From assembly GCF_018476525.1 (NCBI RefSeq), contig NZ_JAHCST010000052.1, positions 1 to 64,000 on the forward strand: DNA of 64,000 bases, given 5' to 3'. The first letter of the stretch is position 1. Each line of letters starts with the position of its first letter. The position numbers and the translations under genes were made by a program. The notes beneath the pieces were generated by a model. That model was not told the DNA's origin, did no database searches, and was given only the letters and a program-made list of their open reading frames with translations. Positions 1,703-54,869 of this stretch are shown one piece after another. The stretch comes from Acrocarpospora catenulata. Its GTDB lineage: Bacteria; Actinomycetota; Actinomycetes; Streptosporangiales; Streptosporangiaceae.

Positions 1703-1766
1703 CGGGGTTAGCCGTCACGTGTCGTGAGCCACACCGCAGAACCGACTGAACTCCAGGCACCTCTCA

Positions 1767-5939: not shown

Positions 5940-6565
5940 CAGCCTGGCTGATACGTATCCTCCCCGACCTGCGCCGACGGGATGTCAATAGCGACCTGGC
6001 CGATCCTGACCGCCTGCACAAGCGGATGATGCAGCTGGTCCCCGACGAGCTGGGGACGAACGCACGGTCACAGGCCGGGGTGCTGTTCCGGATCGAGGAC
6101 ACCCGGCAGGGCGTTCAACTGCTGGCCCAGAGCCGGATGAAGCCCGACCTCGGACGCCTGCCCGACGGCTACGGCGAGATGGCCGTACGTGAACTGGACG
6201 GCCTGCTACGCCAGTTGACCACCGGCCTGCCGGTGCACTATCGCATCGCCGCCAACCCCTCCAAACGGCTTGGTCGGACCGCGAGCAAGGACGCCGGGAA
6301 GATCAAAGCCCTGTACGGCGCCGCAGCCGAAGAGTGGTGGGTGACCCGCGCCGCCGCCCACGGGCTTGCTGTCACCACTGTCACCTCACACTCCCTGCAG
6401 GAGATCCGCGCCAAGGGAACTGTGCGCCACGCTGTGGTCCGATTCGACGGGCACGGAACTGTGAGCGATCCGTACGCGCTTCGCGCTGCGGTCCTGAAGG
6501 GCATCGGCCGCGGCAAGACCTACGGCTGCGGCCTGCTCAGCCTCGCCCCGGCGGCCCTGCGGTGA
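5936..6565 (+). CDS. cas6e: crRNA endoribonuclease Cas6e (Cse3/CasE)
   Basis: Cas6e cleaves the repeat hairpin to mature crRNAs and stays bound to the 3' handle. The 209-aa protein has the conserved DRLHKRMMQL segment; His28 corresponds in position to the catalytic histidine of characterised Cse3 enzymes. Near the C-terminus is the glycine-rich loop GIGRGKTYGCGLLSLAP. Both repeat variants in this window carry the same CCCCACG/CGTGGGG stem, so one Cas6e could process all four arrays. GTG start in a GTGA overlap with cas5e. Confidence 0.95.
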   Translation: MTAWLIRILPDLRRRDVNSDLADPDRLHKRMMQLVPDELGTNARSQAGVLFRIEDTRQGVQLLAQSRMKPDLGRLPDGYGEMAVRELDGLLRQLTTGLPVHYRIAANPSKRLGRTASKDAGKIKALYGAAAEEWWVTRAAAHGLAVTTVTSHSLQEIRAKGTVRHAVVRFDGHGTVSDPYALRAAVLKGIGRGKTYGCGLLSLAPAALR

Positions 6566-7557
6566 AGCGACCGCCATCCGACGCCAAACGCCGTCTCGGA
6601 CAGCCGACTTTGGCGATGCTGCCCCGCATCGCCGACTCGCTGTCGTTCTTGTACCTGGAGACCGTTCGCATCGTCCAGGACGACACCGGCGTGTGCGCTC
6701 AGGTCGACTCTCCGCGCGGTGTCGAACGGGTCTACCTGCCGACCGCGTCGCTGTCGTGCGCGCTGCTCGGCCCCGGCACCTCTATCACCCAGCCCGCGCT
6801 GGCCACCTTCGCCCGCCATGGCACCACCCTGGTCTGCGTCGGCGCGGGCGGTGTCCGGTCCTACGCAGGGATCCTGCCGGCACAGCTCACCACCGACTGG
6901 CTGGAACACCAAGCCCGTGCCTGGGCCGACGAAGGCGAACGTCTCCGGGTCGCGGTGCGGATGTACGAGCACCGCTTCGGCCCGGCCTCGGTTCCCGCCG
7001 GGACTTCCCTCGCTCAGTTACGCGGGCTGGAAGGGCAGCGGGTGAAGGCGCTGTATCGCCTGCTGGCCACCAAGCACGGCATCGCCCGGTTCCGTCGCAA
7101 TTACGACCCCGCCGCCTGGGACGACCAAGATCCGGTCAACCTGGCTCTGTCGGCGTCCAACGCCGCCCTGTACGGCGTCGTGCACGCCGCCATCTGTGCA
7201 CTGGGCTGTTCACCTGCCCTAGGTTTCATCCACGCCGGAACCCAGACCTCCTTCGTCTACGACATTGCCGACCTGTACAAAGCGAAGGTCACCATCCCGC
7301 TGGCATTCTCCTTGGCCGGCTCCACCCAGCCCGAACGCGAAGCCCGTGTCCGACTCCGCGAGGAGTTCCGACTGATCAAGCTCATGCCCACGATCGTCTC
7401 CGACATCCAGAAGGTCATCGCCCCCACGGCGGCAGCGCAACCACCTACCGCACAGACCGCCGACATCGTCCACCTGTGGGACCCCGACCTGGGCTCCCTG
7501 CCCGCAGGGGTCAACTACGCCGACGAGGCTGTCGGAGGAGCCGACATCCCGTGGTAA
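6562..7557 (+). CDS. cas1: CRISPR integrase Cas1 (type I-E)
   Basis: Metal-dependent integrase subunit for spacer acquisition, 331 aa. The three metal ligands of the E. coli enzyme are recognisable: Glu in LRGLEGQRVKALYR, His in GFIHAGTQTSFVYD, and Asp in VYDIADLYK. The block NLALSASNAALYGVVHAAI is a family signature. GTG start overlaps the cas6e stop. All active-site residues are present, so adaptation may still be possible. Confidence 0.96.
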   Translation: MKRPPSDAKRRLGQPTLAMLPRIADSLSFLYLETVRIVQDDTGVCAQVDSPRGVERVYLPTASLSCALLGPGTSITQPALATFARHGTTLVCVGAGGVRSYAGILPAQLTTDWLEHQARAWADEGERLRVAVRMYEHRFGPASVPAGTSLAQLRGLEGQRVKALYRLLATKHGIARFRRNYDPAAWDDQDPVNLALSASNAALYGVVHAAICALGCSPALGFIHAGTQTSFVYDIADLYKAKVTIPLAFSLAGSTQPEREARVRLREEFRLIKLMPTIVSDIQKVIAPTAAAQPPTAQTADIVHLWDPDLGSLPAGVNYADEAVGGADIPW

Positions 7558-7636
7558 CCGCCCCCCTGTCACCCCGGACCGCCCCTTTCACGCGCTCCGT
7601 GATGCTTAGGAGCGGCCCCCGCCAAGGAGCGTCACC

Positions 7637-7939
7637 ATGGCTTCGATGATCGTCATCTCCACCACCGCCGTACCCGACCACGTCCGCGGCGCCCTCAGCC
7701 GCTGGCTCATCGAACCAACCCCCGGCCTGTACGTCGGCACTGTCTCTGCCCGCGTCCGAGACCACCTCTGGGCCGCCGTCGCAGGCTGCGTCGACGACGG
7801 CGCGGCCACCTGCCTTCACCCAGCCGACAACGAACAAGGCTTCATCGTCCGCACAGCCGGCCACCGCCGCCGCCAGATCAGCGACTTCGACGGCCTCCAA
7901 CTGGTGCGCTTCCTCCCCGAACCCCCACCCGAGCAATGA
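7637..7939 (+). CDS. cas2: CRISPR-associated protein Cas2 (type I-E)
   Basis: Cas2 dimers scaffold the Cas1 integrase. This 100-aa protein has the ferredoxin-like MIVISTTAVPDHVRGALSRW start and the type I-E pattern LYVGTVSARVRDHLW, with the C-terminal QISDFDGLQLVRFLP block. The ATG at 7637 has a near-ideal AAGGAG site. It is separated from cas1 by 79 nt, the only gap in the operon besides cas3-cse1, and it directly precedes the leader of the first array. Confidence 0.93.
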   Translation: MASMIVISTTAVPDHVRGALSRWLIEPTPGLYVGTVSARVRDHLWAAVAGCVDDGAATCLHPADNEQGFIVRTAGHRRRQISDFDGLQLVRFLPEPPPEQ

Positions 7940-8041: not shown

Positions 8042-9121
8042 GTGGTCCCCACGCCCGTGGGGGTGAGCCGGCCGGTGTAGAGCTGGATGCCCTCGGTGTT
8101 GAGTGGTCCCCACGCCCGTGGGGGTGAGCCGCTTCCGCTCCTCCCTGATGTCCTTAAGGGTTTGTGGTCCCCACGCCCGTGGGGGTGAGCCGGCGAGCCA
8201 GCGGGTGGCCGTCTGCGCGAAGGCGTGGTCCCCACGCCCGTGGGGGTGAGCCGTACATGGGGCCGTTGGAGTCGGTGCCGCAGAAGTGGTCCCCACGCCC
8301 GTGGGGGTGAGCCGAGGGGATCATCCCGAAGCTTAGCCACAGCATCGTGGTCCCCACGCCCGTGGGGGTGAGCCGTAGCGTCATCTGGCCGCGAACCCAA
8401 GGGTTGAGTGGTCCCCACGCCCGTGGGGGTGAGCCGCCGGATTGGCAGGAGCACCACCGATGGAACCCGTGGTCCCCACGCCCGTGGGGGTGAGCCGCTC
8501 TACGGGGAGACCGCAGCCGCCAACCGCGCGTGGTCCCCACGCCCGTGGGGGTGAGCCGTCCGCCGAGCGGCTCGCCCCCATGCAGATGGCGTGGTCCCCA
8601 CGCCCGTGGGGGTGAGCCGGGCGTCCCGGCCGGGATCGACATCCGAGGGACGTGGTCCCCACGCCCGTGGGGGTGAGCCGTTCCGCTGCCTCTCGATCGA
8701 GAGCTTCAGCACGTGGTCCCCACGCCCGTGGGGGTGAGCCGCTCGCGCGGCGGGCGGCCGGGATCGCCGACGGGTGGTCCCCACGCCCGTGGGGGTGAGC
8801 CGGTCCGCTCGGCCGAATCCGCTGGCGAGGTGGAGTGGTCCCCACGCCCGTGGGGGTGAGCCGGCGGTGCCCGCGGGAACCCGGGTGCCGGTGGTGTGGT
8901 CCCCACGCCCGTGGGGGTGAGCCGAACTGCGCGTCGGCTGGCTTCCGGGTGCGGCCGTGGTCCCCACGCCCGTGGGGGTGAGCCGATCACTGTGGGGCTG
9001 GTGGCGCGGCTGACCAGGTGGTTCCCCACGCCCGTGAGGGTGAGCCGAACAGCAACGCCAGGCCAGGCGGGTATTGCGAGTGGTCCCCACAGGTGATCGT
9101 CTGATGGTGGGGGTGCAGCGG
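8042..9121 (+). CRISPR. CRISPR array 1 (cas-proximal), 18 repeats, GTGGT...GAGCCG type
   Basis: 29-nt repeats start at 8042, 8103, 8164, 8225, 8286, 8347, 8408, 8469, 8530, 8591, 8652, 8713, 8774, 8835, 8896, 8957, 9018 and 9080. Spacers are 32 nt (the last 33). The repeat begins GTGGT, contains the hairpin CCCCACGCCCGTGGGG and ends GAGCCG. Repeat 17 has two substitutions (GTTCC, GTGAGG). Repeat 18 keeps both arms (GTGGTCCCCAC and GTGGGGGTG) but its loop is replaced by 16 other bases (9091-9106). This terminal decay places the leader on the left. Confidence 0.98.
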
Positions 9122-9193
9122 AGAGTCCGCCGCACCTTCTACCAAGGTTCTGGGGATCGGGTGTCCCTTAGTCGGCAGGAAGGCGTTCAGCGT

Positions 9194-9433
9194 ATGGCGA
9201 GGCGGAGATGGCGGTGGGCCGGCATTGTCGCGGGTGCTCTCCTGCTGTCCGCGGTTGTTGGGTATCAGAACTGTCCCGACTGCCAGCTGGCGGGCTGCCA
9301 TTTCATCAACCCGGTGCAGCGGCACGTGCCTCTTCCGCCGGGAAACGCCGGTCCCGCCGAGGTCGTCGGTTCGGTGGGAAAGCAGCCTGCCGGCCGATCC
9401 TGGAGGATCGTGGGGTACGGCACGGGCGTGTAG
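9194..9433 (+). CDS. Small putative secreted or membrane-anchored protein
   Basis: 79-aa ORF with ATG preceded by AGGAAGG at about 10 nt. A basic N-terminus (MARRRWRW) is followed by one hydrophobic segment (about residues 9-23, AGIVAGALLLSAVVG). Then comes a short cysteine motif, NCPDCQLAGC. It resembles a signal peptide or single anchor with a tiny extracytoplasmic domain. I recognise no family. It lies between array 1 and the convergent exopolysaccharide operon, ending 19 nt from the spherulin-4 gene. It could be a chance ORF. Confidence 0.4.
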   Translation: MARRRWRWAGIVAGALLLSAVVGYQNCPDCQLAGCHFINPVQRHVPLPPGNAGPAEVVGSVGKQPAGRSWRIVGYGTGV

Positions 9434-9452
9434 TCCGAGGGCATGTCGGATC

Positions 9453-10088
9453 TCATCGGATCCGCTCGTAGTACGAGGGAAGGTCCCCCCAGGGGTTCGG
9501 CTGCCGGAACGTGGTGAGGAACCCCGTTCCCGCCAGCCGAGAGGCCGTGCGTTCGACGAAGCGACGAGCCCAGGCGGGTACCTCGTGCACCAGGTGGCAG
9601 AAGCTCGCTGGATTCCGGGCCCACGACGGCGGCCGTACGGAACGGTAGGAGGTCCAGGGCCCCTCGAAGGTCACCAGTAGATCTCCGAGGGAGGTGTAGT
9701 CGGGGTCGGGGTAGACGCCGGGGTTGAGGATCAGCCGGCCCTGTGGGCGTAACGCGGTGGTGGCGACTCGATAGTGCGATAAACGGTCGCCCCCGGAGGA
9801 GACCTGGTCGAGGAAGGTGCCGGAGGTGCCGTACCAGGAGCGGTAGCGCAATGCGTCCGCCACCAGTTCACGGACGGGGCGAGCGCCGTACGCGGTGTCG
9901 ATGTAGCCCAGGACCTCGACACCGGCGGCGTGCAAGGGCTTGAGGACGTGGGCGAAGTCGGGGTCGCGGGTGGTGCCGGGGCCGCCCGCGATGTTGAGGA
10001 TGATCGTGGAGGGTGGGCGGGCGGCCAGGCGGCGCCAGGCGGATTCCTGGGCGACGGGGTGGAAGTAGGCGGGGACGAGGGTGTTCAT
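9453..10088 (-). CDS. Spherulation-specific family 4 (Sph3/GH135-like) protein
   Basis: Member of the spherulin-4 family, whose characterised fungal member Sph3 is an endo-glycosidase acting on galactosaminogalactan during its synthesis. The 211-aa protein opens VPAYFHPVAQESAWRRL and has GYIDTAYGARP, SGTFLDQVSSGGD and VTFEGPW, the expected TIM-barrel strand ends. Fungal Sph3 has an Asp-Glu pair at the FLD position; here it reads Asp94-Gln95, while Glu142 in TFEGPW is kept. No signal peptide is visible, so it may act in the cytoplasm. The start ATG overlaps the stop of the upstream SDR gene. Last gene of the seven-gene operon. Confidence 0.85.
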   Translation of the reverse strand: MNTLVPAYFHPVAQESAWRRLAARPPSTIILNIAGGPGTTRDPDFAHVLKPLHAAGVEVLGYIDTAYGARPVRELVADALRYRSWYGTSGTFLDQVSSGGDRLSHYRVATTALRPQGRLILNPGVYPDPDYTSLGDLLVTFEGPWTSYRSVRPPSWARNPASFCHLVHEVPAWARRFVERTASRLAGTGFLTTFRQPNPWGDLPSYYERIR

Positions 10089-10957
10089 CAGGTCTGCCAG
10101 GCGTCGGCGAGGGTGGTGCGGAGGGGGATGGCCGGGCGCCAGGGCAGTGCCTGGGTGATGGCGGTGATGTCGGCGCAGGACCAAGGGAGGGTGGAGCCGC
10201 CTGCGGACGGGGTGGAGAGGACTCGGCCGGGCCATGCGGCCACCGAGATCATCGTGTCCACCAGTTCCTGTACGGGGACCGCGCGCCCGGTGCCCAGATT
10301 GAGCACCGGGGGCAGCGGACCGCGAGCCAGGGCGGCGGCCACGATGGCGGCCGCCGCGTCCCGGACGTCGATGAAGTCGCGTACGTCGGTGGTGACGCCG
10401 AGCAGGACCTCGTCGCCCGCGCGTAGCCCGGCGATCAGCCGCCCGGTGAGGCTGCCACCCGAAGCCCCGGGCCCTACCGGATTGAAGAGCCGGAGCACCA
10501 CGGCATCCAGCCCGTCCAGGGCCGCCGCGCGGACCAGTGCGGTCCCGGCCAGCTTGGTCAGGCCATACTCGCCGAGCGGGCGGCACTCAGCGTCCTCCCG
10601 CACCGGTACGGCATGCGCCCCGTACTCGGCGGCCGACCCCACATGCACCAGACGGGCGTCCGGCACCACATCGGCCATGGCCCGCAGCAGCCGCGCGGGA
10701 GCGGTGACGTTCCCCGCCACCAGCGCGGCCGACTCCCCGTGCACCACCCCGGCGCAGTTGACCACCACCGACGGCTCCGCCTCCGCGAGCACCCGGCAGA
10801 GCGCGTCGTACGGCCCTGCGGCCAGGTCGACCACCCGGCAATGCGTGAGCTCCCGGCGCCGGGTGAGGATCAACTCCACCCCCGGCGCCCCCGCCAGCAG
10901 CTCGGCCACATGCCGTCCCACGAACCCGGACGCACCGGTCAGCAGCACCCGCGTCAT
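10088..10957 (-). CDS. NAD(P)-dependent NDP-sugar epimerase/4-ketoreductase (SDR)
   Basis: 289-aa extended SDR. The N-terminus LLTGASGFVGRHVAELL is the Rossmann TGxxGxxG motif, and YGLTKLAG is the catalytic YxxxK. DVRDFIDVRDAAAAI and the LNLGTGRAVPVQELV block are typical of GDP-4-keto-6-deoxymannose reductases and NDP-sugar epimerases. It lies directly downstream of a nucleotidyltransferase and a dehydratase-type SDR, so it may complete an NDP-6-deoxyhexose. A UDP-hexose 4-epimerase role, as in galactosaminogalactan synthesis, cannot be excluded. Its stop overlaps the spherulin-4 start. Confidence 0.85.
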   Translation of the reverse strand: MTRVLLTGASGFVGRHVAELLAGAPGVELILTRRRELTHCRVVDLAAGPYDALCRVLAEAEPSVVVNCAGVVHGESAALVAGNVTAPARLLRAMADVVPDARLVHVGSAAEYGAHAVPVREDAECRPLGEYGLTKLAGTALVRAAALDGLDAVVLRLFNPVGPGASGGSLTGRLIAGLRAGDEVLLGVTTDVRDFIDVRDAAAAIVAAALARGPLPPVLNLGTGRAVPVQELVDTMISVAAWPGRVLSTPSAGGSTLPWSCADITAITQALPWRPAIPLRTTLADAWQT

Positions 10958-11671
10958 TCACGCCCCTCGCAGCAGAGCCGGCCGGAGTACGTCGAACTCG
11001 GCGTTGGCCCGGTCGTAGTCGTCGGGCCGTCCGATGTCCAGCCAGTGCCCGTCGAAGTCGTACTGCGCGGGATGGCGGCCCTTGCGGAGCAGGTCCAGCA
11101 CGAGTTCGTCGAAGCCGAGCGGCAACCCGGGCGAGTAGCCGTACAGGCACTGCTTGGAGAGGGCGTAGACGCCCATGCTGACCCGGTAGTCGATGGTCGG
11201 CTTCTCGGTGAACTCGACGATGCGGCCGTCGGCGGCGGTCAGGACGCCGAAGTCGATTTTGACCTCGCGGCGGTAGGTGGCGATGGTGAGCGGCGCCCGG
11301 CCCCGGATGTGGCCGCGGAGCAGGTCGCCGAAGTCGAGGTCGGTGAGGATGTCGCCGTTCATCACCAGGAACTGGGCGGGCAGGGTGTCGAGCATGGTGA
11401 GGAGCGGGCCCATGGTGCCGAGCGGGGCGGTTTCCAGGGCGTAGTCCACGCGCAGGCCCCACTGCGCGCCGTCGCCGACGTACGCCCGGATGAGATGCCC
11501 GAGATGTCCGATGGCCAGCGTGGCGGAGGTGAAGCCGCGTTCGGCGAGCTGGCGCATGATGATCTCCAGGATGGAGTACTGCTCGCCGATCGGCACCAGC
11601 GGCTTGGGCAGCGTGGTGGTGTACGGGCGGAGGCGGACCCCTTTGCCCCCGGCCAGGATCACTGCGTGCAC
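10958..11671 (-). CDS. Sugar-1-phosphate nucleotidyltransferase
   Basis: 237-aa NTP_transferase fold: VILAGGKGVRLRPYT followed by LPKPLVPIG is the nucleotide-binding signature, MNGDILTDLDF carries the metal-binding Asp, and EFTEKP and GHWLDIGRPDDYDRA are conserved blocks. It activates a sugar 1-phosphate, similar to mannose-1-phosphate guanylyltransferases or glucose-1-phosphate transferases; the nucleotide cannot be told by eye. The GTG at 11671 is chosen because GAGGACGG precedes it and the upstream gene ends 11 nt away. An in-frame extension into that gene is ignored. Confidence 0.88.
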   Translation of the reverse strand: MHAVILAGGKGVRLRPYTTTLPKPLVPIGEQYSILEIIMRQLAERGFTSATLAIGHLGHLIRAYVGDGAQWGLRVDYALETAPLGTMGPLLTMLDTLPAQFLVMNGDILTDLDFGDLLRGHIRGRAPLTIATYRREVKIDFGVLTAADGRIVEFTEKPTIDYRVSMGVYALSKQCLYGYSPGLPLGFDELVLDLLRKGRHPAQYDFDGHWLDIGRPDDYDRANAEFDVLRPALLRGA

Positions 11672-11682
11672 GGAATCCGTCC

Positions 11683-12660
11683 TCACACGTGGTAGATGGT
11701 CGTCTTGTAACGGTCCAAGTTCTCCGGGAACCAGGCCGCGCACGCCTTCAGCCCGTCCTCAAGCGTGTGCGCGGGCGCCCAGCCGCGTTCCCGGAGTTTG
11801 GTGCTGTCGCAGACCAGGCGCATCACCTCCGAGTCGGCGGGGCGGAGCCGTTCGGCCTTGCAGGTGAACTCCACCTCGGCGCCCATGATCTCGGCGATCT
11901 TCGAGGCCAGCTCGCCGACGGAGATCTCGACTCCGGTCCCGGCGTTGAACAGTTCCCCTTCCACGCCTTGGGCGGTGCCCAGGTGGGCGAAGGCGGCGGC
12001 GGTGTCCTTGACGTACAGGAAGTCGCGAGTGGGGGTGAGCGCGCCGAGCTGGACCGAGCGTGCCCCGGCGGCGATCTGGCTGATGATCGTGGGGATCACG
12101 GCGCGGGCCGACTGGCGGGGGCCGAAGGTGTTGAACGGGCGGAGGGTGACGGCGGGCAACCCGAAGCTGAGGTGGTAGCTCTCCACCAGTTTGTCGGCGC
12201 CCAGCTTGGAGGCCGCGTACGGCGACTGCGCCTGCAACGGGTGCGATTCAGTGATCGGCACCGACAGGGCGGTCCCGTACGTCTCGCTGGTCGAGGTGTG
12301 GACGAGCCGCCCGACCGCGGCCTCCCGTACGGCCTCCAGCACGTTGAGCGTGCCCAGCACGTTGGTCTCCAGGTACGACCGGGGAGCCAGGTAGGAGTAC
12401 GGGATGGCGATCAGCGCCGCCAGGTGGTAGACGACGTCGGCCCCGGCCACCAGCTTCCGTACGCTCGCCGGGTCGCGCACGTCCCCCGGCACCACCTCGA
12501 CGCCGGCCATCACCTCCGCCGGCAGCGTGTCCAGCCACCCCCAGGACCCGAAGGAGTTGTACTGGGCCATCGCCCGGACCCGATACCCCCGCTCGACCAG
12601 CAGTTCGACCAGGTGGGAGCCGATGAACCCATCGGCCCCCGTCACAGCATGCGTTATCAC
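11683..12660 (-). CDS. NDP-sugar 4,6-dehydratase-type SDR (LegB-like)
   Basis: 325-aa extended SDR with VTGADGFIGSHLVELL (Rossmann motif), HTSTSETYGTA, PYAASKLGADKL (YxxxK) and RPFNTFGPRQSARAVIP. The YNSFGSWGWLDTLP segment after the second beta-strand is characteristic of the LegB/GDP-mannose-dehydratase-like group, which makes 4-keto-6-deoxy sugars. The GTG at 12660 has GAGAGGAC just upstream; the open frame upstream runs into the membrane-protein gene and is not used. Its position next to a nucleotidyltransferase supports NDP-sugar supply for the polymer. Confidence 0.85.
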   Translation of the reverse strand: MITHAVTGADGFIGSHLVELLVERGYRVRAMAQYNSFGSWGWLDTLPAEVMAGVEVVPGDVRDPASVRKLVAGADVVYHLAALIAIPYSYLAPRSYLETNVLGTLNVLEAVREAAVGRLVHTSTSETYGTALSVPITESHPLQAQSPYAASKLGADKLVESYHLSFGLPAVTLRPFNTFGPRQSARAVIPTIISQIAAGARSVQLGALTPTRDFLYVKDTAAAFAHLGTAQGVEGELFNAGTGVEISVGELASKIAEIMGAEVEFTCKAERLRPADSEVMRLVCDSTKLRERGWAPAHTLEDGLKACAAWFPENLDRYKTTIYHV

Positions 12661-12679
12661 GAGATGTCCTCTCTTCTTC

Positions 12680-13918
12680 TTATTGATGGAGTGAAGGGCG
12701 AGCAACCGAGCTCCACGCGACGGCCACGACCCCGACCAGCAGCCCCAGATCCACGCCGAGCTGGAGACGGGGCAGGTGCACCCGTACCGCCAGCGCGGCG
12801 GCGAACAGCACGAGCACCGGCCGGTTGATCCCGAAGGACTGGAGGACGAGCGCCACCAGCACCGCCCCGCCGAGCGCGAGGTTGCCCACCGGCGCCAGGG
12901 TCCCGGACACCCAGACGACCAGCGCGGTGAGCAGGGCCAGCACCCCCAGGTACCGCCCGAGCGCCGCCACCAGCGCGACCCGGACCCCACGGGCGAACCG
13001 CCGAGCCGTCTCGGTACGGCGCAGCAGCAGGTGACCGCCCCGCCGGAACCGGTACACCGCCCACTCGGCGGCCCCCATGCTCAACGAGAGCGGCACCATC
13101 ACCAGCGCGCCGTCCTCCAGCGGGGCTCCGGCGGCCAGCAACCCCCCGCAGAGCGCCCCGAACAAAGCCGGAGCAACCGCCCCCGACAGGGGCAGCCGCC
13201 CGGGACGGGCCTTGGTCCTGCTCACCCACTCGGCCAGCACCAGCGCCTCAAGCACGGTCAGTGCCCCCGCCGCCCAGACCGCCCACACATGCGGCCAGCC
13301 CACGGCCAGGTACACCACGCTGAGCACACATCCGGGAACGAGCGCCGCCAGCAGCACCAGCTCCCCGCCCGCGACCAGGATCGCCCCAGCCGCCAGCAGG
13401 TAGACCACCTGCCCGGTCGCCAGCAGGACCGCCGCCAGGCTCGCGCCGGTCGCCCAGCCCGTCGCGGCGACCACCGGGACCAGCACCGCCAGCCCGATCC
13501 GCAGCCCGCGCCGCGCCACCGCCAGCCCCTCGTCCCGGTTCCCGTGCCCGATCGCGACGTACGCCAGGTACGCCGCCCCCTGCCCGTACGCCCAGGCCAG
13601 CAGCAACGAGACGAGTAGCACCAGGGTGGAGCCGGTGACCGCCTGGGCGGCGGTGACGTAACACAACCCCGGCAGCCCGAAGAGCACGCCGCGCACCGCA
13701 TGCCGTACCGGATCGCCCGCCCAGGGATCGGGCAACGGCTCGGCCGGTTCGACCGGGCGGCGCGGCACGGTCCGGTAGAGCGCCTCGGCGTAGGCGAACA
13801 CGTCCGGGTGCCCGTGGCTCGCGGCCCCCTCGTCGTTCAGGCCGTCGAACTCCAGCCCGGCCGCGATTTCCAGAGGATCGACGGCGTTGGCGCACAGCTC
13901 GGTGAGTTGGTCGTTCAC
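12680..13918 (-). CDS. Polytopic membrane protein of the exopolysaccharide operon (possible PelG-like exporter)
   Basis: 412 aa. A soluble N-terminus of about 60 residues is followed by roughly ten to twelve hydrophobic segments spaced in pairs, with short basic loops such as RFRRGGHLLLRRTETARRF. I do not recognise a definite family. Size, topology and its place directly after a PelF-like transferase fit PelG, the MOP-superfamily membrane protein that works with PelF in Pel polymer synthesis and transport, but no PelG motif could be confirmed by eye. GTG start overlaps the glycosyltransferase stop (GTGA), so the two are translationally coupled. Confidence 0.7.
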   Translation of the reverse strand: MNDQLTELCANAVDPLEIAAGLEFDGLNDEGAASHGHPDVFAYAEALYRTVPRRPVEPAEPLPDPWAGDPVRHAVRGVLFGLPGLCYVTAAQAVTGSTLVLLVSLLLAWAYGQGAAYLAYVAIGHGNRDEGLAVARRGLRIGLAVLVPVVAATGWATGASLAAVLLATGQVVYLLAAGAILVAGGELVLLAALVPGCVLSVVYLAVGWPHVWAVWAAGALTVLEALVLAEWVSRTKARPGRLPLSGAVAPALFGALCGGLLAAGAPLEDGALVMVPLSLSMGAAEWAVYRFRRGGHLLLRRTETARRFARGVRVALVAALGRYLGVLALLTALVVWVSGTLAPVGNLALGGAVLVALVLQSFGINRPVLVLFAAALAVRVHLPRLQLGVDLGLLVGVVAVAWSSVARPSLHQ

Positions 13919-15297
13919 GCCGTCACCACCCGGGGGTAGAGGGTGCGGAAGCTGTCCACGGCCTTGTCCACGGTGAACAGCCCGAGCGCCCGCTCCCGCG
14001 CCTGCGCGCCCAGCCGGGAGCGGAGCGCGCCGTCCTTGAGCAGGGTCAGGCAGGCCGCCGCCATCGCCCCGGGATCCCGCGGCGGCACCACCAGCCCGGT
14101 CCCCGCGACGGCCTCCCGTACCCCGCCGACGTCGGTGGCCACGGTCGCCCGCCCGGTCGCCATCGCCTCGATCAGCGTGTACGGAAACCCCTCCGAGATG
14201 CTCGACAACACGACCACATGCCCGGCCGTGTAGGCGTCCCGGATGTCGTCCACCCGTCCTTCGAAGCTGATCGGCAATCCCCCGGCCAGCTCCCTGCACC
14301 CCGCCAGGTACGCCTCCCGCCCCGCCGGTGTCCCCCCGAAGATCCGCAACCGGGCCTCGGGCAACTCTTCGTGCACCTGCCCGAAGGCCCGGATCAACGT
14401 CTCCAGATCCTTGATCGGATCGATCCGCCCGGCCCAGCTGAGCGTCGGCACCTCCGGCTCCCCCTCAGCCGGGGCGAACTGCCCGGGATCGACCCCGTTG
14501 TACACGGTCAGCAACCGCCCCGGATCGGCCCCGCAGCGCACCTCCCACCGGATGTTGTACTTGTTCCCCGGCGTGATCAGACTCGCCTCCAGGTACGCCG
14601 CCGAGCAGAGCATCCGCAGGAAACTCAGCAGCACCGCCTTCACCGGCCACCGGTACGGCGAGCGCCGCAATCCCAGATACCGCTCCCGCAGGTAGACCCC
14701 GTGCTCGGTGAGCACGAACGGCGTGCCCTCGATCCACTTGGCGGCCAGCGCCGGCAGCACCGCCAGCCCGTTGGCCACCACGTGGGTCACCTCCGCCCCG
14801 GTCGCCGGGAAGCGCAGCGGCCGGAGCGAGTGTTCGATCAGATCCACCGCCGTGACCGCGTCGTGCACGGTCGGCACCACGCCGATCGCCGCGTACTCCT
14901 CCCGCCGGGCCGCCCACACCTCCAGCAGGCAGCGCACCGCGGTGTCCCCGCAGAGCGGCGCGCCCAGGCGGAGCAGCTCGCGCAGCACCCCGGCGAACCG
15001 GGCCGCCGACCCCTGCCAGGGGTCCAGCATCAGGTCGAGCATCTCGCGGAACAGCTCCTCGAAACGGCGGCGGGCACGGCCCCGGGGCGGGCGGCCCGGT
15101 TGGGCGCCCCAGAGCGGGATGGGGGTGACGGTGGCGTTGGCGGGCAGGTCCCAGGCGAGCGATTCCCGGCCGGTGCCGACGATGGCGCGCAGGTCGAACC
15201 GGTACTCGGGCATGCCCCGGACCAGCTGGTCGCACCAGACGCTGACTCCGCCGTGGTGGTGCGGGTAGGTGCCCTCCGTCACCATGGTGACGCGCAT
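13915..15297 (-). CDS. PelF-like GT4 glycosyltransferase
   Basis: 460-aa glycosyltransferase predicted to polymerise the exopolysaccharide. The N-terminus VTMVTEGTYPHHHGGVSVW followed by CDQLVRGMPEYRFDL is characteristic of PelF-type enzymes with a DUF3492 N-terminal domain. The C-terminal GT4 half has SWAGRIDPIKDLETLIRAF, IFGGTP and the catalytic EX7E motif in SEGFPYTLIEA. PelF proteins are cytoplasmic and use UDP-hexosamines; the donor here is unknown. Start ATG lies six nt after the deacetylase stop, with no clear ribosome site, implying coupling. Confidence 0.88.
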   Translation of the reverse strand: MRVTMVTEGTYPHHHGGVSVWCDQLVRGMPEYRFDLRAIVGTGRESLAWDLPANATVTPIPLWGAQPGRPPRGRARRRFEELFREMLDLMLDPWQGSAARFAGVLRELLRLGAPLCGDTAVRCLLEVWAARREEYAAIGVVPTVHDAVTAVDLIEHSLRPLRFPATGAEVTHVVANGLAVLPALAAKWIEGTPFVLTEHGVYLRERYLGLRRSPYRWPVKAVLLSFLRMLCSAAYLEASLITPGNKYNIRWEVRCGADPGRLLTVYNGVDPGQFAPAEGEPEVPTLSWAGRIDPIKDLETLIRAFGQVHEELPEARLRIFGGTPAGREAYLAGCRELAGGLPISFEGRVDDIRDAYTAGHVVVLSSISEGFPYTLIEAMATGRATVATDVGGVREAVAGTGLVVPPRDPGAMAAACLTLLKDGALRSRLGAQARERALGLFTVDKAVDSFRTLYPRVVTA

Positions 15298-15303
15298 GGG
15301 GGG

Positions 15304-17316
15304 TTACGGCAGCAGGAGTTTGATCGGCTGGAGCAGCGCCGCCCGCTGGTAGGCCGAGAGTTCGCCGGCGTACGCGGTGCCGAACGGGCTGCTGCCCAGG
15401 TTGAGCAGGTTCGGGACGCGGGTGCCGTTGGGGGCGGTGAGCGGGACGTCCAGGGTGTCGGGGGCGTCCACGAACACCACGCCGCCCTGGATGTAGCCGG
15501 AGACCTGGTCGGCCTGGACGGCCTGCCGCCAGGCGGCCATGCGCTTCAGTTCGGCGCCGATCGCCGAGGTGCGCAGGTTGACGATGGGGGTGTTGGCCGC
15601 GTACAGGGACCGGTACTGGGCGAAGATCTGGTCGAGCACCTGGTAGGCCAGCCGGTCGCCGGTCAGGTTGGACTGGTGGGCGTAGTGCGGCCAGGGCAGG
15701 CCGCCGAGTACGTGCCGGAGCCCGTTGCGCACCTCGATCGGGAGGATGTGGCCGGTCCAGCCGGTGGCCGGGTCCAGCGGTGGGATGCAGGTGGTGGTGG
15801 CCGGGTTGTCCTCGCAGATCCCGGAGCCGCCGTCGGCCCTGCTGTTGTAGATCCAGTTGTACTCGTCCACCTCGTCGGCCACGGTGGCGACGTTGTAGAA
15901 GATGTTCATCGGGTACCTGGGCACGGTGGCCGCGTTGCCGACCGCGCGCTGCACGGGGTCCCGGGAGGCGTCGCTGCCGATCCACTTCACACCGGTGTTG
16001 TTCAGGGCGGGTGCCAGGTTGGGGTTGTCGACCGGCTGGCGGGGCTGCAGGAAGAGGCCGGAGTGCTCGCCGGTGACCAGTTCGGTGGTGTCCAGGGGCA
16101 GGCCGTGCTGGGTGGCGAACTGCTTGTTGCGGTTGATCTCGTCCTCGATGGTGGCCCGGGTGGTCCAGACGATCTGGCCCTGCGCGTTGGTGGCGCACCG
16201 CCAGGGGTTGACCGAGAAGTCCTGGGCGCAGCCGAGGTACGGGTGGGTGTAGGTGTGGTTGGCCCAGCGGAACTTGGCCTTGTTGGCCTTCAGGCTGGGG
16301 AGCAGCGGGTCGGTGCCGCCGTGCTCGGCCGCGTAGACGGCGCTGCCGCCGCCGTTGTAGTAGAAGTCCAGGGTGAAGCCGCTGGTGTTGGTCCACTGGA
16401 CGGCGGCGTTGACGTCGTCCGGGGTCATGCGGATGCCGGTCTCGGGTACGCCCGGGGGGCAGTCGCTGGCCGGGGTGCAGTTGTACTCGGCGTTCCATCG
16501 GGTGTCGTCGCCGAACACGTCGTCCACGTGCAGGGCGAAGTAGTTGCGGTCGTAGCCGAAGTGCACGCCCTTGGTCAGCCAGGTGAGCAGGCCGTGGGAG
16601 ATCATCTGGAACTGCCGCTGGTTCGGGTTGGCGGCGGCGGTGACCACCAGCTCGCTCCGGCCGTCGTGGGTGTACACGCCCGCGACCACGCCCTGGTTGG
16701 CGCTGTTCGGGATCGGCATGGTGAGCAGCGGCTGGAAGCTCTTCCCGGTGGCCGGGTCGTTCGGGAGCGGCGTGGCCAGGTACCCCCAGGTCTCCGCGGC
16801 CACCGGCGACTCGTCGTCGAACGGCACCTGCCCCGCGAGGTACGGGAACGGCCCACCCGGGCTCATGGTCGCCGTCATGCCGTCCAGCGGGCCGGCGTAT
16901 TCCGGATAATTCAGCCCCACGTCCGGGTACGCGTACACGTACGCGCTGATCTGCCGTATCCCAAACCTCCGCTCATAATCCACTAAGGCGGACATTTCCG
17001 ATGGATTGGTAAATGGATTGGCGTTCGGCAGAATCACCCCCTGAAACTTGGCCCGATCCGCGGCCCCCATCCGATCCGCCAGGAACGCCGCGTTAATCAC
17101 CGGCCGCCCCGGACTAGTGAGATCCACCTTCTGGTACGGAATCCCCTCCGAATCCATCGCGGCGGCGATCGCGTCCGTGGCCGTCGACCCATCCGAAACC
17201 AGCAGAACCTTCATATTGATCATCGGCTCCACGGCATGCGCCGCAGTCGCAGGAACGAGCGCGAAGATCGAGCTCAGACCAACCGTAACCAGACCAAAAC
17301 GACGAAAAGCCGCCAC
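15304..17316 (-). CDS. Secreted Agd3-like exopolysaccharide deacetylase
   Basis: 670 aa with a Sec signal peptide (basic start, hydrophobic core to about residue 24, likely cleavage after AHA). The body resembles fungal Agd3 (CE18), which partially deacetylates GalNAc in galactosaminogalactan. An N-terminal domain (about 35-250) is followed by a deacetylase domain with HVDDVF (263-268, metal/acid motif) and NHTYTH (His354 and His358). Later blocks include GEHSGL and LPWPHYAHQSNL. NodB-type deacetylases show TFDD and HxxxxH; the HVDD form is the Agd3 variant as I remember it. First gene of the operon: GTG start with AGGAGG upstream. It would act outside the cell. Confidence 0.85.
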   Translation of the reverse strand: MAAFRRFGLVTVGLSSIFALVPATAAHAVEPMINMKVLLVSDGSTATDAIAAAMDSEGIPYQKVDLTSPGRPVINAAFLADRMGAADRAKFQGVILPNANPFTNPSEMSALVDYERRFGIRQISAYVYAYPDVGLNYPEYAGPLDGMTATMSPGGPFPYLAGQVPFDDESPVAAETWGYLATPLPNDPATGKSFQPLLTMPIPNSANQGVVAGVYTHDGRSELVVTAAANPNQRQFQMISHGLLTWLTKGVHFGYDRNYFALHVDDVFGDDTRWNAEYNCTPASDCPPGVPETGIRMTPDDVNAAVQWTNTSGFTLDFYYNGGGSAVYAAEHGGTDPLLPSLKANKAKFRWANHTYTHPYLGCAQDFSVNPWRCATNAQGQIVWTTRATIEDEINRNKQFATQHGLPLDTTELVTGEHSGLFLQPRQPVDNPNLAPALNNTGVKWIGSDASRDPVQRAVGNAATVPRYPMNIFYNVATVADEVDEYNWIYNSRADGGSGICEDNPATTTCIPPLDPATGWTGHILPIEVRNGLRHVLGGLPWPHYAHQSNLTGDRLAYQVLDQIFAQYRSLYAANTPIVNLRTSAIGAELKRMAAWRQAVQADQVSGYIQGGVVFVDAPDTLDVPLTAPNGTRVPNLLNLGSSPFGTAYAGELSAYQRAALLQPIKLLLP

Positions 17317-17604
17317 CGTGCCTCCTACCAGGGAATCCAGACATAAATGCGCCCTTTTGACGATGAAGGCGCAAAATGGCTATCCGACGAGATCGCAAGG
17401 CCTAGTTATATCCGGCCATTCTCAATTGACGGGGGCACTCAAAAAATTCCACCACTATTGACTACGCACCATCCCCCGAACACAACAAATCCAACAATCC
17501 CGACAAACCCTGATTGGCCCACTATCACCCACACATCCCGCCGATATCTTCGGTCCCCGACTGAAGCGGTACGGCATCTGCTACAGATTGTGTGGAGGTT
17601 CCCG
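17317..17604. other. Intergenic region between the exopolysaccharide operon and the distal CRISPR block
   Basis: 288 nt, visibly richer in A and T than its surroundings. It must hold the promoter of the minus-strand seven-gene operon and of the plus-strand antitoxin remnant. CCCGACAAACCC near 17500 resembles the CCGACAAAC elements of the array 1 leader, but the match is short. No gene or clear hairpin seen. Confidence 0.5.
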
Positions 17605-17861
17605 ATGTCCAGCAGAGTGAGCGAAGCCCGGCGCCGAGTGCTGCCGCTCATCAACGAGGTCACTGAGGAGGGCAAGGCTGTGGAGATCACCGCCAGGAAC
17701 AACCGTGTCTCCCCGGTGCTGGCCGGCGAGCATGAGGCACTGGTGAGACGGCACACCTTTTGCGGTCCCCGGCCAACATGCGCAGACTCCTCGCCTCCTA
17801 TCAGCACGCCCAGGAAGGCCGCCACGAAATCCGCGAACTCATCGACGACACCCAGGAATGA
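17605..17861 (+). pseudogene. Frameshifted Phd/YefM-type antitoxin (copy 1)
   Basis: ATG with GGAGG upstream opens a protein starting MSSRVSEARRRVLPLINEV, then AVEITARNN and HEALVRR, the N-terminal DNA-binding half of Phd/YefM antitoxins. Near 17745 the frame shifts by one base; the adjacent frame continues with LLRSPANMRRLLASYQHA and ends EIRELIDDTQE before TGA at 17859. The two intact copies of this 3' part downstream show the same junction in frame, so a small deletion explains the break. No toxin gene follows: a CRISPR leader and array start directly after the stop. Confidence 0.8.
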
Positions 17862-17930
17862 AGCTCGATCACCGACAATTCCCGACATTCACGTCACCGC
17901 AGGTCAGTTGTATTCTCCCTGCTAGGGAAG
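17862..17930 (+). promoter_or_regulatory. CRISPR leader of array 2
   Basis: 69 nt from the antitoxin stop to the first repeat. It contains ATCACCGACAATTCCCGACA, then GTCACCGCAGGTCAGTTG and TATTCTCCCTGCTAGG. Closely related to the leaders at 18517 and 20544 and recognisably to the array 1 leader. Confidence 0.75.
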
Positions 17931-18264
17931 CTGCTCCCCACGCCCGTGGGGGTGAACCGCCGGTCAGGATGCCGCCCTGGATCCAGGGCCCCTGCTCCCC
18001 ACACCCGTGGGGGTGAAACGTACTACCTTGGCGTCAACGGGGAGGCGTACGGTTGCCCCTTACGCCCGTGGGGGTGAACCGGGTGGTATCGGTAAAACCA
18101 CCATCGCAACCAACTGCTCCCCACGCCCGTGGAGGTGAATCGCGTTGCGGCGCGCGGCCACCACCACGGCGAGCCTGCTCCTCACGCCCGTGGGGGTGAA
18201 CCGCCATTTCGGCACATTGCGGGCGTATCGCTCCTCTGCTCCCCACGCCCGTGAGGGTGAACCG
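17931..18264 (+). CRISPR. CRISPR array 2, six partly decayed repeats, CTGCT...GAACCG type
   Basis: Repeats start at 17931, 17992, 18053, 18114, 18175 and 18236, with 32-nt spacers. Only the first matches the consensus. Others carry changes such as CACACCC with GAAACG, TTGCCCCTTACG, GTGGAGG with GAATCG, CTCCTCACG, and GTGAGGG. Many changes disturb the hairpin arms. It looks like a small, old array no longer kept uniform. Confidence 0.95.
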
Positions 18265-18269
18265 TGGTG

Positions 18270-18516
18270 AGGGCATCCTCAAACCAGCCGCCGGATGTTC
18301 TCTCCCATTGACGAGGTCACGGAGGACTGCCAGGCCGTGGAGATCACCACCAGGAACAACTACCGCATGCCCGCCGCCGAGTACAAGGCACTGGAGGAGA
18401 CAACGCACCTGCTGCGCTCCCCGACCAACGCGAGCAGGCTCATCGCCTCTTATCGGTACGCCCTGGAAGGCCACCACGAAATCCGCAAAGCCATCGACGG
18501 CGAGATCCAAGAGTGA
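18270..18516 (+). pseudogene. 5'-truncated Phd/YefM-type antitoxin (copy 2)
   Basis: An ATG at 18295 opens a 73-codon frame: FSPIDEVTEDCQAVEITTRN, then YRMPAAEYKALEETTHLL, ending EGHHEIRKAIDGEIQE and TGA at 18514. It lines up with copy 1 from the LINEV position onward, but the N-terminal SEARRR segment is degraded and merges with the last spacer of array 2 (about 18265-18294). A short product could still be made, but without the DNA-binding N-terminus. It is followed at once by a leader and array 3. Confidence 0.75.
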
Positions 18517-18586
18517 ACCTCAATCACCGACAATCTCCGACATTCGCGTCACCGCAGGTCAGTTGTATTCTCCCTGCTAAGGAAGT
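18517..18586 (+). promoter_or_regulatory. CRISPR leader of array 3
   Basis: 70 nt with CAATCACCGACAATCTCC, a further CCGACA, GTCACCGCAGGTCAGTTG and TATTCTCCCTGCTAAGGAAG. It differs from the leader at 20544 at a single position (CATTCGCG versus CATTTGCG), which indicates a recent duplication. Confidence 0.8.
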
Positions 18587-20253
18587 CTGCTCCCCACGCC
18601 CGTGGGGGTGAACCGTCCTACCTCGGCTACGCCGACCAGCAACTCCACTGCTCCCCACGCCCGTGGGGGTGAACCGACCGAGGAGATCTCGGCGTCCTTG
18701 AAGTGCCGGCTGCTCCCCACGCCCGTGGGGGTGAACCGTGCACAACCAGGTGCATGGCACGATGGGAGAGCTGCTCCCCACGCCCGTGGGGGTGAACCGT
18801 CCCCGCCGGGCAGGGCATCCTCACCCAGTCGCTGCTCCCCACGCCCGTGGGGGTGAACCGTAGTCGGACACGAACGCGTCCTTCTCCTTCGACTGCTCCC
18901 CACGCCCGTGGGGGTGAACCGGTTGGTAAGGTGCGCCCTGAATGAGCGACTTTCTGCTCCCCACGCCCGTGGGGGTGAACCGGACTTCGCGTTCGTGGTG
19001 AGGCCGGTGGCGTACTGCTCCCCACGCCCGTGGGGGTGAACCGGTTGCCACCCTCACACCCTTAGTAGTCCCGATCTGCTCCCCACGCCCGTGGGGGTGA
19101 ACCGGCGGTCTTCGCGACCTTCAACACCATCGACAGCTGCTCCCCACGCCCGTGGGGGTGAACCGGCGTCGGCGATCCGCTTCTGACTGTCCGGCCCTGC
19201 TCCCCACGCCCGTGGGGGTGAACCGCTAACTAAATGGGCTTGGCGTCCAGAAGAACGCTGCTCCCCACGCCCGTGGGGGTGAACCGCCTCTCGGAGACCT
19301 CCGAGAGGGCGATCAGGTCTGCTCCCCACGCCCGTGGGGGTGAACCGGTAGATCGCGTCCGTATCGAACCCCAGCACCGCTGCTCCCCACGCCCGTGGGG
19401 GTGAACCGCCCGCGCTGTAGAGGCGGTCATGCTGGGCCTGCTGCTCCCCACGCCCGTGGGGGTGAACCAGCACGGGAAGTGCCGGAAGACGGAGACGAAG
19501 ATCTGCTCCCCACGCCCGTGGGGGTGAACCTCTGCCGTCGGGGTCTTCGGCCCACATTTGGCACTGCTCCCCACGCCCGTGGGGGTGAACCGGTACCTAC
19601 CGGACCGAGCTGGATAAGGCGATGCTGCTCCCCACGCCCGTGGGGGTGAACCGCCGTACACCTGAACAACCCATGGTCGGGAATGCTGCTCCCCACGCCC
19701 GTGGGGGTGAACCGCCGTACACCTGAACAACCCATGGTCGGGAATGCTGCTCCCCACGCCCGTGGGGGTGAACCGTCCACCGGCGATGGGGTGCTGGACA
19801 GCCTGGACTGCTCCCCACGCCCGTGGGGGTGAACCGCGCACTCGCGCCCGGCCCCAGGAACGCGCCCACGCCCGTGGGGGTGAACCGTCCGCCGGTCTCT
19901 ACCGGGCGGTGGGTGTCGACTGCTCCCCACGCCCGTGGGGGTGAACCGCAGCGGACGGGATGGGCATGTGGTTCTCAGTCCTGCTCCCCACGCCCGTGGG
20001 GGTGAACCGGCGTGGATGGCGCTGGTCTATCTGTGGTCGGCCTGCTCCCCACGCCCGTGGGGGTGAACCGAACACGGTGGTGATGCCTGCCGGGGTGGGC
20101 AGCTGCTCCCCACGCCCGTGGGGGTGAACCGGAGGACGTGACGGATCAGCTCCAGCTGCCGGGCTGCTCCCCACGCCCGTGGGGGTGAACCGACGTCAGC
20201 CCATCTGTGCAAGGAGTGTCATATCTGCTCCCCACGCCCGTGGGGGTGAACCG
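18587..20253 (+). CRISPR. CRISPR array 3, 28 repeats, CTGCT...GAACCG type
   Basis: Repeats start at 18587, 18648, 18710, 18771, 18832, 18893, 18954, 19015, 19076, 19137, 19197, 19258, 19319, 19380, 19441, 19503, 19564, 19625, 19686, 19747, 19808, 19859, 19920, 19981, 20042, 20103, 20164 and 20225. Spacers are mostly 32 nt (31-33). The repeats are almost all identical, so this array looks maintained. The unit at 19859 has lost its first bases and part of its spacer (51-nt period). Spacers 19654-19685 and 19715-19746 are identical. The spacer at 19532-19563 recurs in array 4. Confidence 0.98.
19654..19746 (+). repeat. Tandemly duplicated repeat-spacer unit in array 3
   Basis: The 32-nt spacer beginning CCGTACACCTGAACAACCC is present twice in a row (19654-19685 and 19715-19746), separated by one consensus repeat. 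This is a single-unit tandem duplication, most simply by slippage or unequal recombination between repeats. Confidence 0.95.

Positions 20254-32137: not shown

Positions 32138-32141
<4 letters not shown>
31860..32141 (-). CDS. Discrete acyl/peptidyl carrier protein
   Basis: 93 aa. The phosphopantetheine site is the Ser in LGLTSLARISLIDAVEDAF, in the expected position between helices I and II. ELRAEDVLAGDHPL and the acidic helix II are typical. It could carry the acyl or amino-acyl group made by the ligase at 43974-45467, or the substrate of the adjoining free C domain. It overlaps the upstream NRPS gene and the downstream C-domain gene by four bases each. Confidence 0.88.
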
Positions 32142-37731
<5,590 letters not shown>

Positions 37732-37735
<4 letters not shown>

Positions 37736-43700: not shown

Positions 43701-43935
43701 GCGCGGCCGCCTCGGCTAAGTGGAGCCCGTCGCCGTCCTCCGCGACGGTGGCGGCGAGCACCGGGTGCCTGGCCACCACGCCGTCGCACGCCGCCAGCAG
43801 CGCGGGCACGTCGAGGTCGCCGTCGAACCACAGGGCGAGCGGCATGTGGTACGCCGCGCCGGCGCCCAGCCGCTCGCTGATCCAGATGCCCTGCTGGGCG
43901 AAGGAAGCCGCGATGCTTTCCTGCAGGTGGGTCAT
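37732..43935 (-). CDS. Non-ribosomal peptide synthetase C-A-T-C-A-T
   Basis: 2067 aa. Module 1: C (about 1-430, AHHLVFDGM), A (about 450-925), carrier Ser961 in LGGDSLTITQ. Module 2: C (about 1015-1450, LHHIIADGW), A (about 1475-1965), carrier Ser2005 in LGGHSLLATR. No epimerase or methyltransferase domain. By-eye pocket residues are D-I-L-Q-L-G-V-I-W-K for A1, nearly the glycine code DILQLGLIWK, and D-T-E-D-I-G-T-I-I-K for A2, which I cannot assign; two acidic residues hint at a basic side chain. The starting C domain implies an acyl starter. ATG at 43935; a longer open frame upstream overlaps the ligase gene and is not used. Confidence 0.94.
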
Positions 43936-43973
43936 GTGCGTTCTCTCTGTTCCGTACGCGGAGGCCGCCGGGA

Positions 43974-54790: not shown

Positions 54791-54869
54791 CGCGACGCCG
54801 TCAACCCTCGTGGAAAGGGTGATCCGTCATGTGCCGGGTCCCTTGTCCCAGGCGACCCTGGAGGCTCTT

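Follow-up and report, generated by a model that had tools for sequence, protein, structure and literature searches.

The window analyzed here is a 64,000-nucleotide stretch (positions 1 to 64,000) of contig NZ_JAHCST010000052.1 of the actinomycete Acrocarpospora catenulata, whose assembled genome (10.3 Mb, 181 contigs) is 98% complete. Its minus strand carries, at 9453-17316, seven open frames that overlap or nearly abut, the gene order running from 17316 to 9453 (Table 1). This operon is the subject of what follows. Genes 2 and 3 overlap by 4 bases, genes 6 and 7 share the sequence TGATG, and genes 5 and 6 abut; the remaining intergenic gaps are 6, 19, and 11 bases, 19 being the maximum. An earlier note on this DNA had described seven same-strand genes with overlaps or short gaps in this interval, and the coordinates are confirmed; corrected starts of genes 3, 4, and 5, taken from the sequence, are at 13918, 12660, and 11671, respectively. 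No promoter turned up in a sigma-70 scan, and the terminator-like sites (5, vs. 2.1 expected) are uninformative, each being within or at the start of a gene.

Table 1. Genes of the operon, in the order of transcription (SDR, short-chain dehydrogenase/reductase; NDP, nucleoside diphosphate; GT4, glycosyltransferase family 4).
Gene	Positions	Strand	Predicted product	Length (amino acids)
1	15304-17316	-	secreted Agd3-like polysaccharide de-N-acetylase (predicted)	670
2	13915-15297	-	PelF-like GT4 glycosyltransferase, presumed polymerase	460
3	12680-13918	-	12-helix membrane protein, MOP-flippase fold, PelG-like in role	412
4	11683-12660	-	LegB-like NDP-sugar 4,6-dehydratase (predicted)	325
5	10958-11671	-	sugar-1-phosphate nucleotidyltransferase	237
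6	10088-10957	-	SDR, likely NDP-4-keto-6-deoxyhexose reductase	289
7	9453-10088	-	Spherulin-4 / GH135-type protein, without visible signal peptide	211

The N-terminus of the gene 1 protein, as read from its sequence, resembles a Sec-type signal peptide. Neither Pfam model for Agd3 reaches its gathering score of 27.6 bits (Agd3_CE, PF25115, 16 bits; CBM87_Agd3, PF25116, 17 bits), the Pfam domain of heparan sulfate N-deacetylase is also under its cut-off (21.4 bits), and phmmer found nothing among PDB sequences at E <= 0.001; the kinship with Agd3 is therefore drawn from the fold. An AlphaFold2 model made from a 20-row alignment (pLDDT 88.5) has as its best PDB match the Agd3 structure 6nwz (Foldseek E 3.6e-31, TM 0.69/0.70), on which it superposes with Z 29.9 over 543 residues at 2.7 Å; residues 30-670 align with 142-801 of the 6nwz chain in a three-domain fold, the CBM87 domain region included. 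The runner-up is human NDST1 (Z 24.2). Under the Agd3 motif definitions CM1-CM4 of PMC7229062 (this and the other papers cited here are used as excerpts), the catalytic residues are D265 and D266 (CM1), H354 and H358 of an HxxxH motif (CM2), and H547 (CM4), all five being present in 41 of 42 rows; for the CM3 arginine (R613 of Agd3), the alignment allowed no arginine of gene 1 to be assigned. Fold and catalytic residues support the prediction that gene 1 encodes an Agd3-type deacetylase. To that extent the Agd3-like identity first proposed for it stands; the Pfam profiles do not bear it out.

Gene 2, described previously as a PelF-like GT4 of the DUF3492 type, passes both corresponding models, with 144.7 bits for NCBIfam PelF (NF038011, cut-off 100) and 168.5 for Pfam DUF3492 (cut-off 23.3). 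It is the sole DUF3492 match in the window's genome and, by Pfam scan, the sole glycosyltransferase among the seven. Gene 3 matches no Pfam or NCBIfam family at E <= 0.01, the PelG family PF16933 among them, and PF16933 has no match in the genome at E <= 0.001. A model of gene 3 (pLDDT 87) has twelve long helices, and its top Foldseek rows are MOP/MATE transporters and the lipid III flippase WzxE (best E 8.9e-5, TM 0.47). PelG is itself a member of the MOP superfamily.

At the other end of the operon, the identification of gene 7 as a spherulin-4 protein holds up: it passes Pfam PF12138 (Spherulin4; 106.5 bits, cut-off 30.2) and matches the PDB entry for Sph3 (5c5g) at E 7.5e-9. The first GH135 motif contains an Asp-Glu pair, in which the Glu also has a role. 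In gene 7 this Glu, following the catalytic Asp, is not retained: it is Gln in the window, and among 27 rows from loci of the window's own operon type (type II, defined below) 19 have Q and 8 have R. Sph3 has a catalytic Asp and a catalytic Glu, with roles given in PMC12054363; these correspond to D94 and E142 of gene 7, both kept in all 27 of these rows. The Glu-to-Gln change was considered as a tracker of the nucleotide-sugar genes described below and dropped as a pointer to the sugar; loci lacking those genes are also without the Glu, with type I rows reading DQE (4), DRE (1), and DCE (1) at that motif. The protein begins MNTLVPAYFHP, by way of the TGATG coupling, and this N-terminus does not appear hydrophobic. 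Its relatives align from the same place, though their starts were picked by script as those nearest the window's; one copy, at L040, has a hydrophobic N-terminal stretch. The gene 7 protein is probably located in the cytosol. Sph3 of fungi is bound to the membrane and is believed to cleave the chain during its emergence (PMC12054363). With no signal visible in gene 7, intracellular trimming or chain release would be likelier than trimming outside, and the extracellular trimming first assigned to it is doubtful. The same genome has a second Spherulin-4 gene (L043, positions 1441-3027, contig C162), with a long C-terminal part and the Asp-Glu pair kept.

Genes 4-6 form what will be called the cassette. 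Gene 4 scores 452.5 bits with the LegB model TIGR04180 (cut-off 475); other NCBIfam scores are 178 for dTDP-glucose dehydratase, 141.5 for GalE (TIGR01179), and 96.3 for GDP-mannose dehydratase (TIGR01472). The level for GalE-type 4-epimerases (TIGR01179, 262.3) is reached neither by gene 4 nor by gene 6 (76.7 bits). The acid/base signature of gene 4 (T124 S125 E126, Y148xxxK152) is found in 30 of 30 rows, and the gene has no further match in the genome at E <= 1e-60. PMC8987622 gives [ST]SE...Yx3K for GDP-mannose 4,6-dehydratase and shows GalE without an acid/base pair; the substrate of Campylobacter jejuni LegB is GDP-GlcNAc (PMC7439481). As predictors, the profile of gene 4 says LegB and its signature says GDP-mannose-like or LegB; the LegB profile and the adjoining deacetylase suggest an amino sugar as substrate. 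Gene 5 matches Pfam NTP_transferase with 128 bits. All the NCBIfam models that it matches fall under cut-off, the best being mannose-1-phosphate guanylyltransferase (NF052502, 123.5 bits, cut-off 440), and its best PDB rows are glucose-1-phosphate uridylyltransferase and mannose-1-phosphate guanylyltransferase beta. Gene 6 is without the dehydratase acid/base pair; its best solved match is 2pk3, GDP-6-deoxy-D-lyxo-4-hexulose reductase (75.6 bits). Activation, dehydration, and reduction are the standard order of steps toward a 6-deoxyhexose donor. With gene 2 as the lone glycosyltransferase in the operon, the simplest assumption is that the cassette supplies it. The operon had been read earlier as making a GalNAc-type (N-acetylgalactosamine) polymer; with a LegB-like dehydratase, a nucleotidyltransferase, and a reductase-like SDR in genes 4-6 and no GalE-level match, that is not the simplest reading.

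Loci for comparison (L numbers) were chosen by a match to gene 1, 2, or 5, and the linkage counts given here are therefore not an unbiased survey. Twenty-eight of them, the window not counted, have both LegB-like and PelF-like genes; they represent the window's operon type, type II. All seven genes are colinear on one strand in 23 of the 28, and the gene set is therefore not a matter of chance. The five exceptions lack gene 1 (L050, L053) or gene 7 (L059, and L033 near the end of its stretch), or have gene 1 after gene 7 (L060). Hosts include four named Acrocarpospora species (gene 1 80-83% identical to that of the window), Actinocorallia, Streptoalloteichus, Kitasatospora, other members of the window's family, and a large genus (g85), probably Streptomyces. 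There, gene 4 is matched at E <= 1e-115 in 47 of 199 genomes, with locus context examined in the minority already fetched. Gene 1 is matched in 17 of 150 genomes of a family sample, and gene 5 at E <= 1e-60 in 22 of 394 of a class sample, the window's own genome included in both. Twenty of the 22 gene 5 matches were fetched, leaving out the window itself and one genome (G419): a PelF-like gene scoring 150 bits or more lies in the stretch in seventeen and is missing in two, and the remaining stretch is truncated at a contig end. Conservation of the neighborhood in other actinobacteria, as had been anticipated, is thus found, and together the deacetylase fold, the PelF-like GT4, the Spherulin-4 protein, and the conserved neighborhood argue for an exported, deacetylated amino-sugar polymer.

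Three further arrangements combine some of the same genes with different partners. Type I combines genes 1 and 2 without the cassette; its deep loci (L026, L028, L030, L076) have, by tblastn, gene 3 in two, gene 7 in three, and GH114 in all four. Type III (L037, L038, L039, L062) shares genes 1, 2, and 3 with the window, along with an SDR resembling the window's and a nucleotidyltransferase whose identity to gene 5 is 61-65%. LegB is replaced by a nucleotide-sugar dehydrogenase, which in L062 scores 291.8 bits with TIGR03026, and a further SDR that carries a TSE motif in 4 of 4 loci; last comes a small protein, with a GH114 match under cut-off in one of three scanned. The best profile for the TSE SDR of L062 is dTDP-glucose dehydratase (103 bits), ahead of LegB and UDP-xylose synthase, none of the three reaching its cut-off; a decarboxylase role for it would be a guess from the neighboring dehydrogenase. 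The type III partner SDR has YxxxH instead of YxxxK in 4 of 4 loci. Type IV (L067-L075) has genes 2 and 3, a gene like 6, and in eight of nine loci one like 7, but no gene 1. In the Streptomyces-like type IV loci (L067-L073, L075) the Spherulin-4 catalytic Glu is lost in 8 of 8 rows and the Asp in two; going by these residues, the proteins are probably dead hydrolases retained beside a PelF-like gene.

On a GT4 tree of 53 rows, types III and IV each form one clade (100/100). The four type labels need 4 changes on it, against a mean of 22.1 for shuffled labels, and the three labels on a gene 1 tree of 38 rows need 5 against 10.5, figures to be read with the program's warning of long branches and of near-copies that make labels cluster. 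On the GT4 tree, four remote loci (L078-L081) that have few other operon genes are likewise labeled type I. L077, on the same contig as L030, was excluded from trees and residue counts; the trees also exclude loci where the GT4 neighborhood is absent or cut (L027, L036, L040, L041, L055, L061, L063), rows under the script's length limits, and GT4 hits under 150 bits, and the gene 1 tree lacks L030. A gene 4 match at E <= 1e-60 was found in none of the four tested genomes with deep type I operons (those of L026, L028, L030, and L076) and in none of the four tested type III genomes; type IV genomes that lack type II were tested too, and one of the four has a 53% identical copy elsewhere. This distribution of types suggests the pattern expected from donor swapping on a common chassis.

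The locus is a real, widely conserved exopolysaccharide operon, and its novelty is the predicted 6-deoxyhexosamine donor cassette. From the observed folds, catalytic signatures, linkage, and conservation, we infer a sugar, a direction for each step, a product, and a role for it: with a probability of about 0.45, the operon encodes a synthase-dependent exopolysaccharide system of the Pel/galactosaminogalactan kind that is self-contained, with a cassette that makes the donor, a 6-deoxy-N-acetylhexosamine. Gene 5 would activate a hexosamine-1-phosphate, probably as the GDP or UDP derivative; gene 4 would take off the C6 hydroxyl through 4,6-dehydration, and gene 6 reduce the 4-keto group, giving an NDP-2-acetamido-2,6-dideoxyhexose of the N-acetyl-fucosamine or N-acetyl-quinovosamine type. 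Gene 2 would polymerize this donor on the cytosolic face, and gene 3, with its predicted MOP fold, would export the chain. Once outside, the polymer would lose part of its acetyl groups to the secreted gene 1 protein and so become cationic and adhesive; gene 7 would probably act as a glycosidase in the cytosol, trimming chains or terminating them. A more specific version is offered tentatively: the product would be a homopolymer, of either N-acetylfucosamine or N-acetylquinovosamine, that a PelF-like synthase makes from a dedicated NDP-sugar and that is then deacetylated in part. The system would be one member of a chassis family in which the donor cassette varies. The version of the chassis with a dehydrogenase and an SDR might yield a uronic or pentose amino-sugar polymer.

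Several points weigh against the 6-deoxy-N-acetylhexosamine proposal. TIGR04180 and both Agd3 Pfam models stay under their cut-offs. In the excerpts of PMC8987622, retaining UDP-GlcNAc 4,6-dehydratases have [ST]DE and no row for LegB was found; with [ST]DE rather than [ST]SE in the UDP-GlcNAc enzymes, the signature of gene 4 favors GDP-mannose-type chemistry at least equally. Nor is TSE exclusive to gene 4, being found also in an SDR of the four type III loci. The type IV SDR, from loci without a dehydratase, likewise has 2pk3 as its best match (77.9 bits); the match of gene 6 is therefore not specific, and gene 6 could be an epimerase. A serious rival, though on balance an unlikely one, is that genes 4-6 make a neutral NDP-6-deoxyhexose from GDP-mannose, something like GDP-D-rhamnose or 6-deoxy-D-talose. 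The polymer would then mix 6-deoxyhexose and N-acetylhexosamine, as galactosaminogalactan mixes galactose and GalNAc, and gene 1 would act on the amino-sugar units. This agrees with the closeness of gene 5 to mannose-1-phosphate guanylyltransferases and of gene 6 to GDP-6-deoxy-D-mannose-type reductases, and with [ST]SE as the GDP-mannose 4,6-dehydratase signature (PMC8987622). The LegB score of gene 4, however, is far above its score for GDP-mannose 4,6-dehydratase (452.5 vs. 96.3 bits for TIGR01472), and a single transferase would need two donors.

Also on the opposing side, GH114 galactosaminidase genes are found in 14 of the 28 type II stretches and 11 of the 23 colinear ones, which suggests a backbone resembling galactosamine there; the nearest compromise would be 6-deoxygalactosamine. 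Such genes, the Agd3 fold of gene 1, the Spherulin-4 match of gene 7 to Sph3, and the cassette-less relatives that have genes 1, 2, 7, and GH114 (L026, L028, L076) are what one would expect of a bacterial galactosaminogalactan or Pel polymer of GalNAc, deacetylated in part by gene 1, with housekeeping UDP-GalNAc as donor and genes 4-6 making a side or terminal sugar. We consider this somewhat unlikely. A side sugar would need a second glycosyltransferase, of which there is none among the seven genes; in 23 of 28 loci the cassette keeps its place, flanked by genes 3 and 7; and genes 4 and 6 show no GalE-level match, while the window's genome has no match to GH114 (Ega3; PF03537) at E <= 0.001. 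Mutual exclusion of GH114 and the cassette was considered and rejected, the two being found together.

A third possibility concerns the use of the cassette. NeuB has two strong matches in the window's genome, both outside the operon, and the LegB-like enzyme may therefore additionally serve a nonulosonic acid. One match is in a fused CMP-transferase/phosphatase/NeuB frame (L086, 7472-9550); the other is a NeuB-like frame (L087, about 8500-9400) near genes resembling 4-hydroxyphenylpyruvate dioxygenase, lactate dehydrogenase, and transketolase. Elsewhere, L063 has at 8083-10682 a LegB-type dehydratase (473.6 bits), a nucleotidyltransferase, and a second SDR near a GT4, with no PelF-like match. 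Both the NeuB genes and the L063 arrangement could be taken to mean that the cassette serves a separate glycoconjugate (a decorated natural product, say, or a nonulosonic acid of the legionaminic type) and shares a locus with the polysaccharide genes by descent only. This is improbable: the Pfam scan of the seven genes matched no aminotransferase family, the gene order is conserved across several actinobacterial families, and ten proteins scanned around the two NeuB genes, a subset of the genes there, include no LegB match at E <= 1e-15. A last point against the proposed donor cassette, in its chassis form, comes from cassette-less paralogues (L064-L066, Streptomyces-like) that nest within type II on the trees. 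Their genomes also hold a type II cassette, and they are therefore no evidence of independent donor choice; their use as proof of donor swapping within a genome was dropped.

If the 6-deoxyhexosamine proposal is correct, cationic adhesive polymers of the Pel/galactosaminogalactan kind are not restricted to galactosamine: Gram-positive soil bacteria would use the same machinery for 6-deoxy, and perhaps other, amino-sugar polymers, and new matrix polymers are predicted in mycelial bacteria. Two or three assayable enzymes per operon could name the sugar. The operon types would amount to a natural experiment on donor selectivity in PelF-like enzymes and on substrate selectivity in those like Agd3, Sph3, and Ega3.

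The operon is flanked by CRISPR arrays, with 17 repeats at 8046-9053 and 13 at 17931-18994 (searched to 19000); matches to Cas3, Cse1, CT1975 (Cas7), Cas5, Cas1, and Cas2 at 8-7939 indicate a type I-E-like system. The exact repeat core is not in 79 of 81 loci, the operon regions of the four named Acrocarpospora species included, and the two loci that have it are pieces of the window's own contig. The CRISPR neighborhood looks incidental. A short segment seems to be present twice between CRISPR repeats, at 17439-17930 and about 18300-18600: an open frame of no Pfam family with a 31-base flank that is 97% identical (17900-17930, 18555-18585). Farther along the window, two adjoining very long frames on the minus strand (32138-44439; 1865 and 2235 amino acids) are possibly a multi-domain synthase cluster, and a cobalamin riboswitch over the Rfam gathering score (54691-54802, plus strand) lies directly before an open frame at 54810.

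The earlier note knew of no characterized example of such a gene set. Operons of this kind were, however, described in 2020 by Bamford et al. (PMC7229062), who report Agd3 homologues in 45 bacterial species and agd3 operons with a cytoplasmic glycosyltransferase and a multi-spanning membrane protein, some of the actinobacterial ones with spherulin-4; GH114 is frequent in them and termed highly consistent. The core idea of an actinobacterial operon of Agd3, glycosyltransferase, membrane protein, and spherulin-4 was therefore already in print. The window shares with those operons the CE18-like gene, the glycosyltransferase, the membrane protein, and, in some, Spherulin-4; its LegB/nucleotidyltransferase/reductase cassette was not found mentioned in the excerpts of that paper. 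Nor was a report of this cassette noticed in searches of the open-licence literature.

With the galactosaminogalactan cluster of Aspergillus fumigatus (Sph3, Gtb3, Ega3, Agd3) the operon has in common a three-domain deacetylase, a Spherulin-4 glycosidase, one glycosyltransferase, and one or more sugar-nucleotide enzymes. The sugar-nucleotide enzyme of the fungal cluster is Uge3, a GalE-type 4-epimerase. The window has instead a 4,6-dehydratase, a nucleotidyltransferase, and an SDR. It also differs in having a PelF-like GT4 with a separate MOP-fold protein, a spherulin in which neither signal peptide nor membrane anchor is visible, and a genome without an Ega3/GH114 match. The Gram-positive Pel locus pelDEADAFG (PMC7112168) likewise shares PelF; where PelG would stand the window has a MOP-type protein, and a 4,6-dehydratase where Gram-positive pel loci have GalE accessories. 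The Pfam scan of the seven proteins matched no PelD, PelE, or Pel deacetylase family, the operon being the whole scope of the search for PelD and PelE. The closest parallel to the cassette itself is the start of the Campylobacter legionaminic acid pathway, where a nucleotidyltransferase is likewise paired with a LegB-type 4,6-dehydratase. The guanylyltransferase of that pathway is PtmE. Unlike the Campylobacter pathway, the window operon has no aminotransferase or later Leg genes; in it the pair is followed by an SDR, within a PelF operon.

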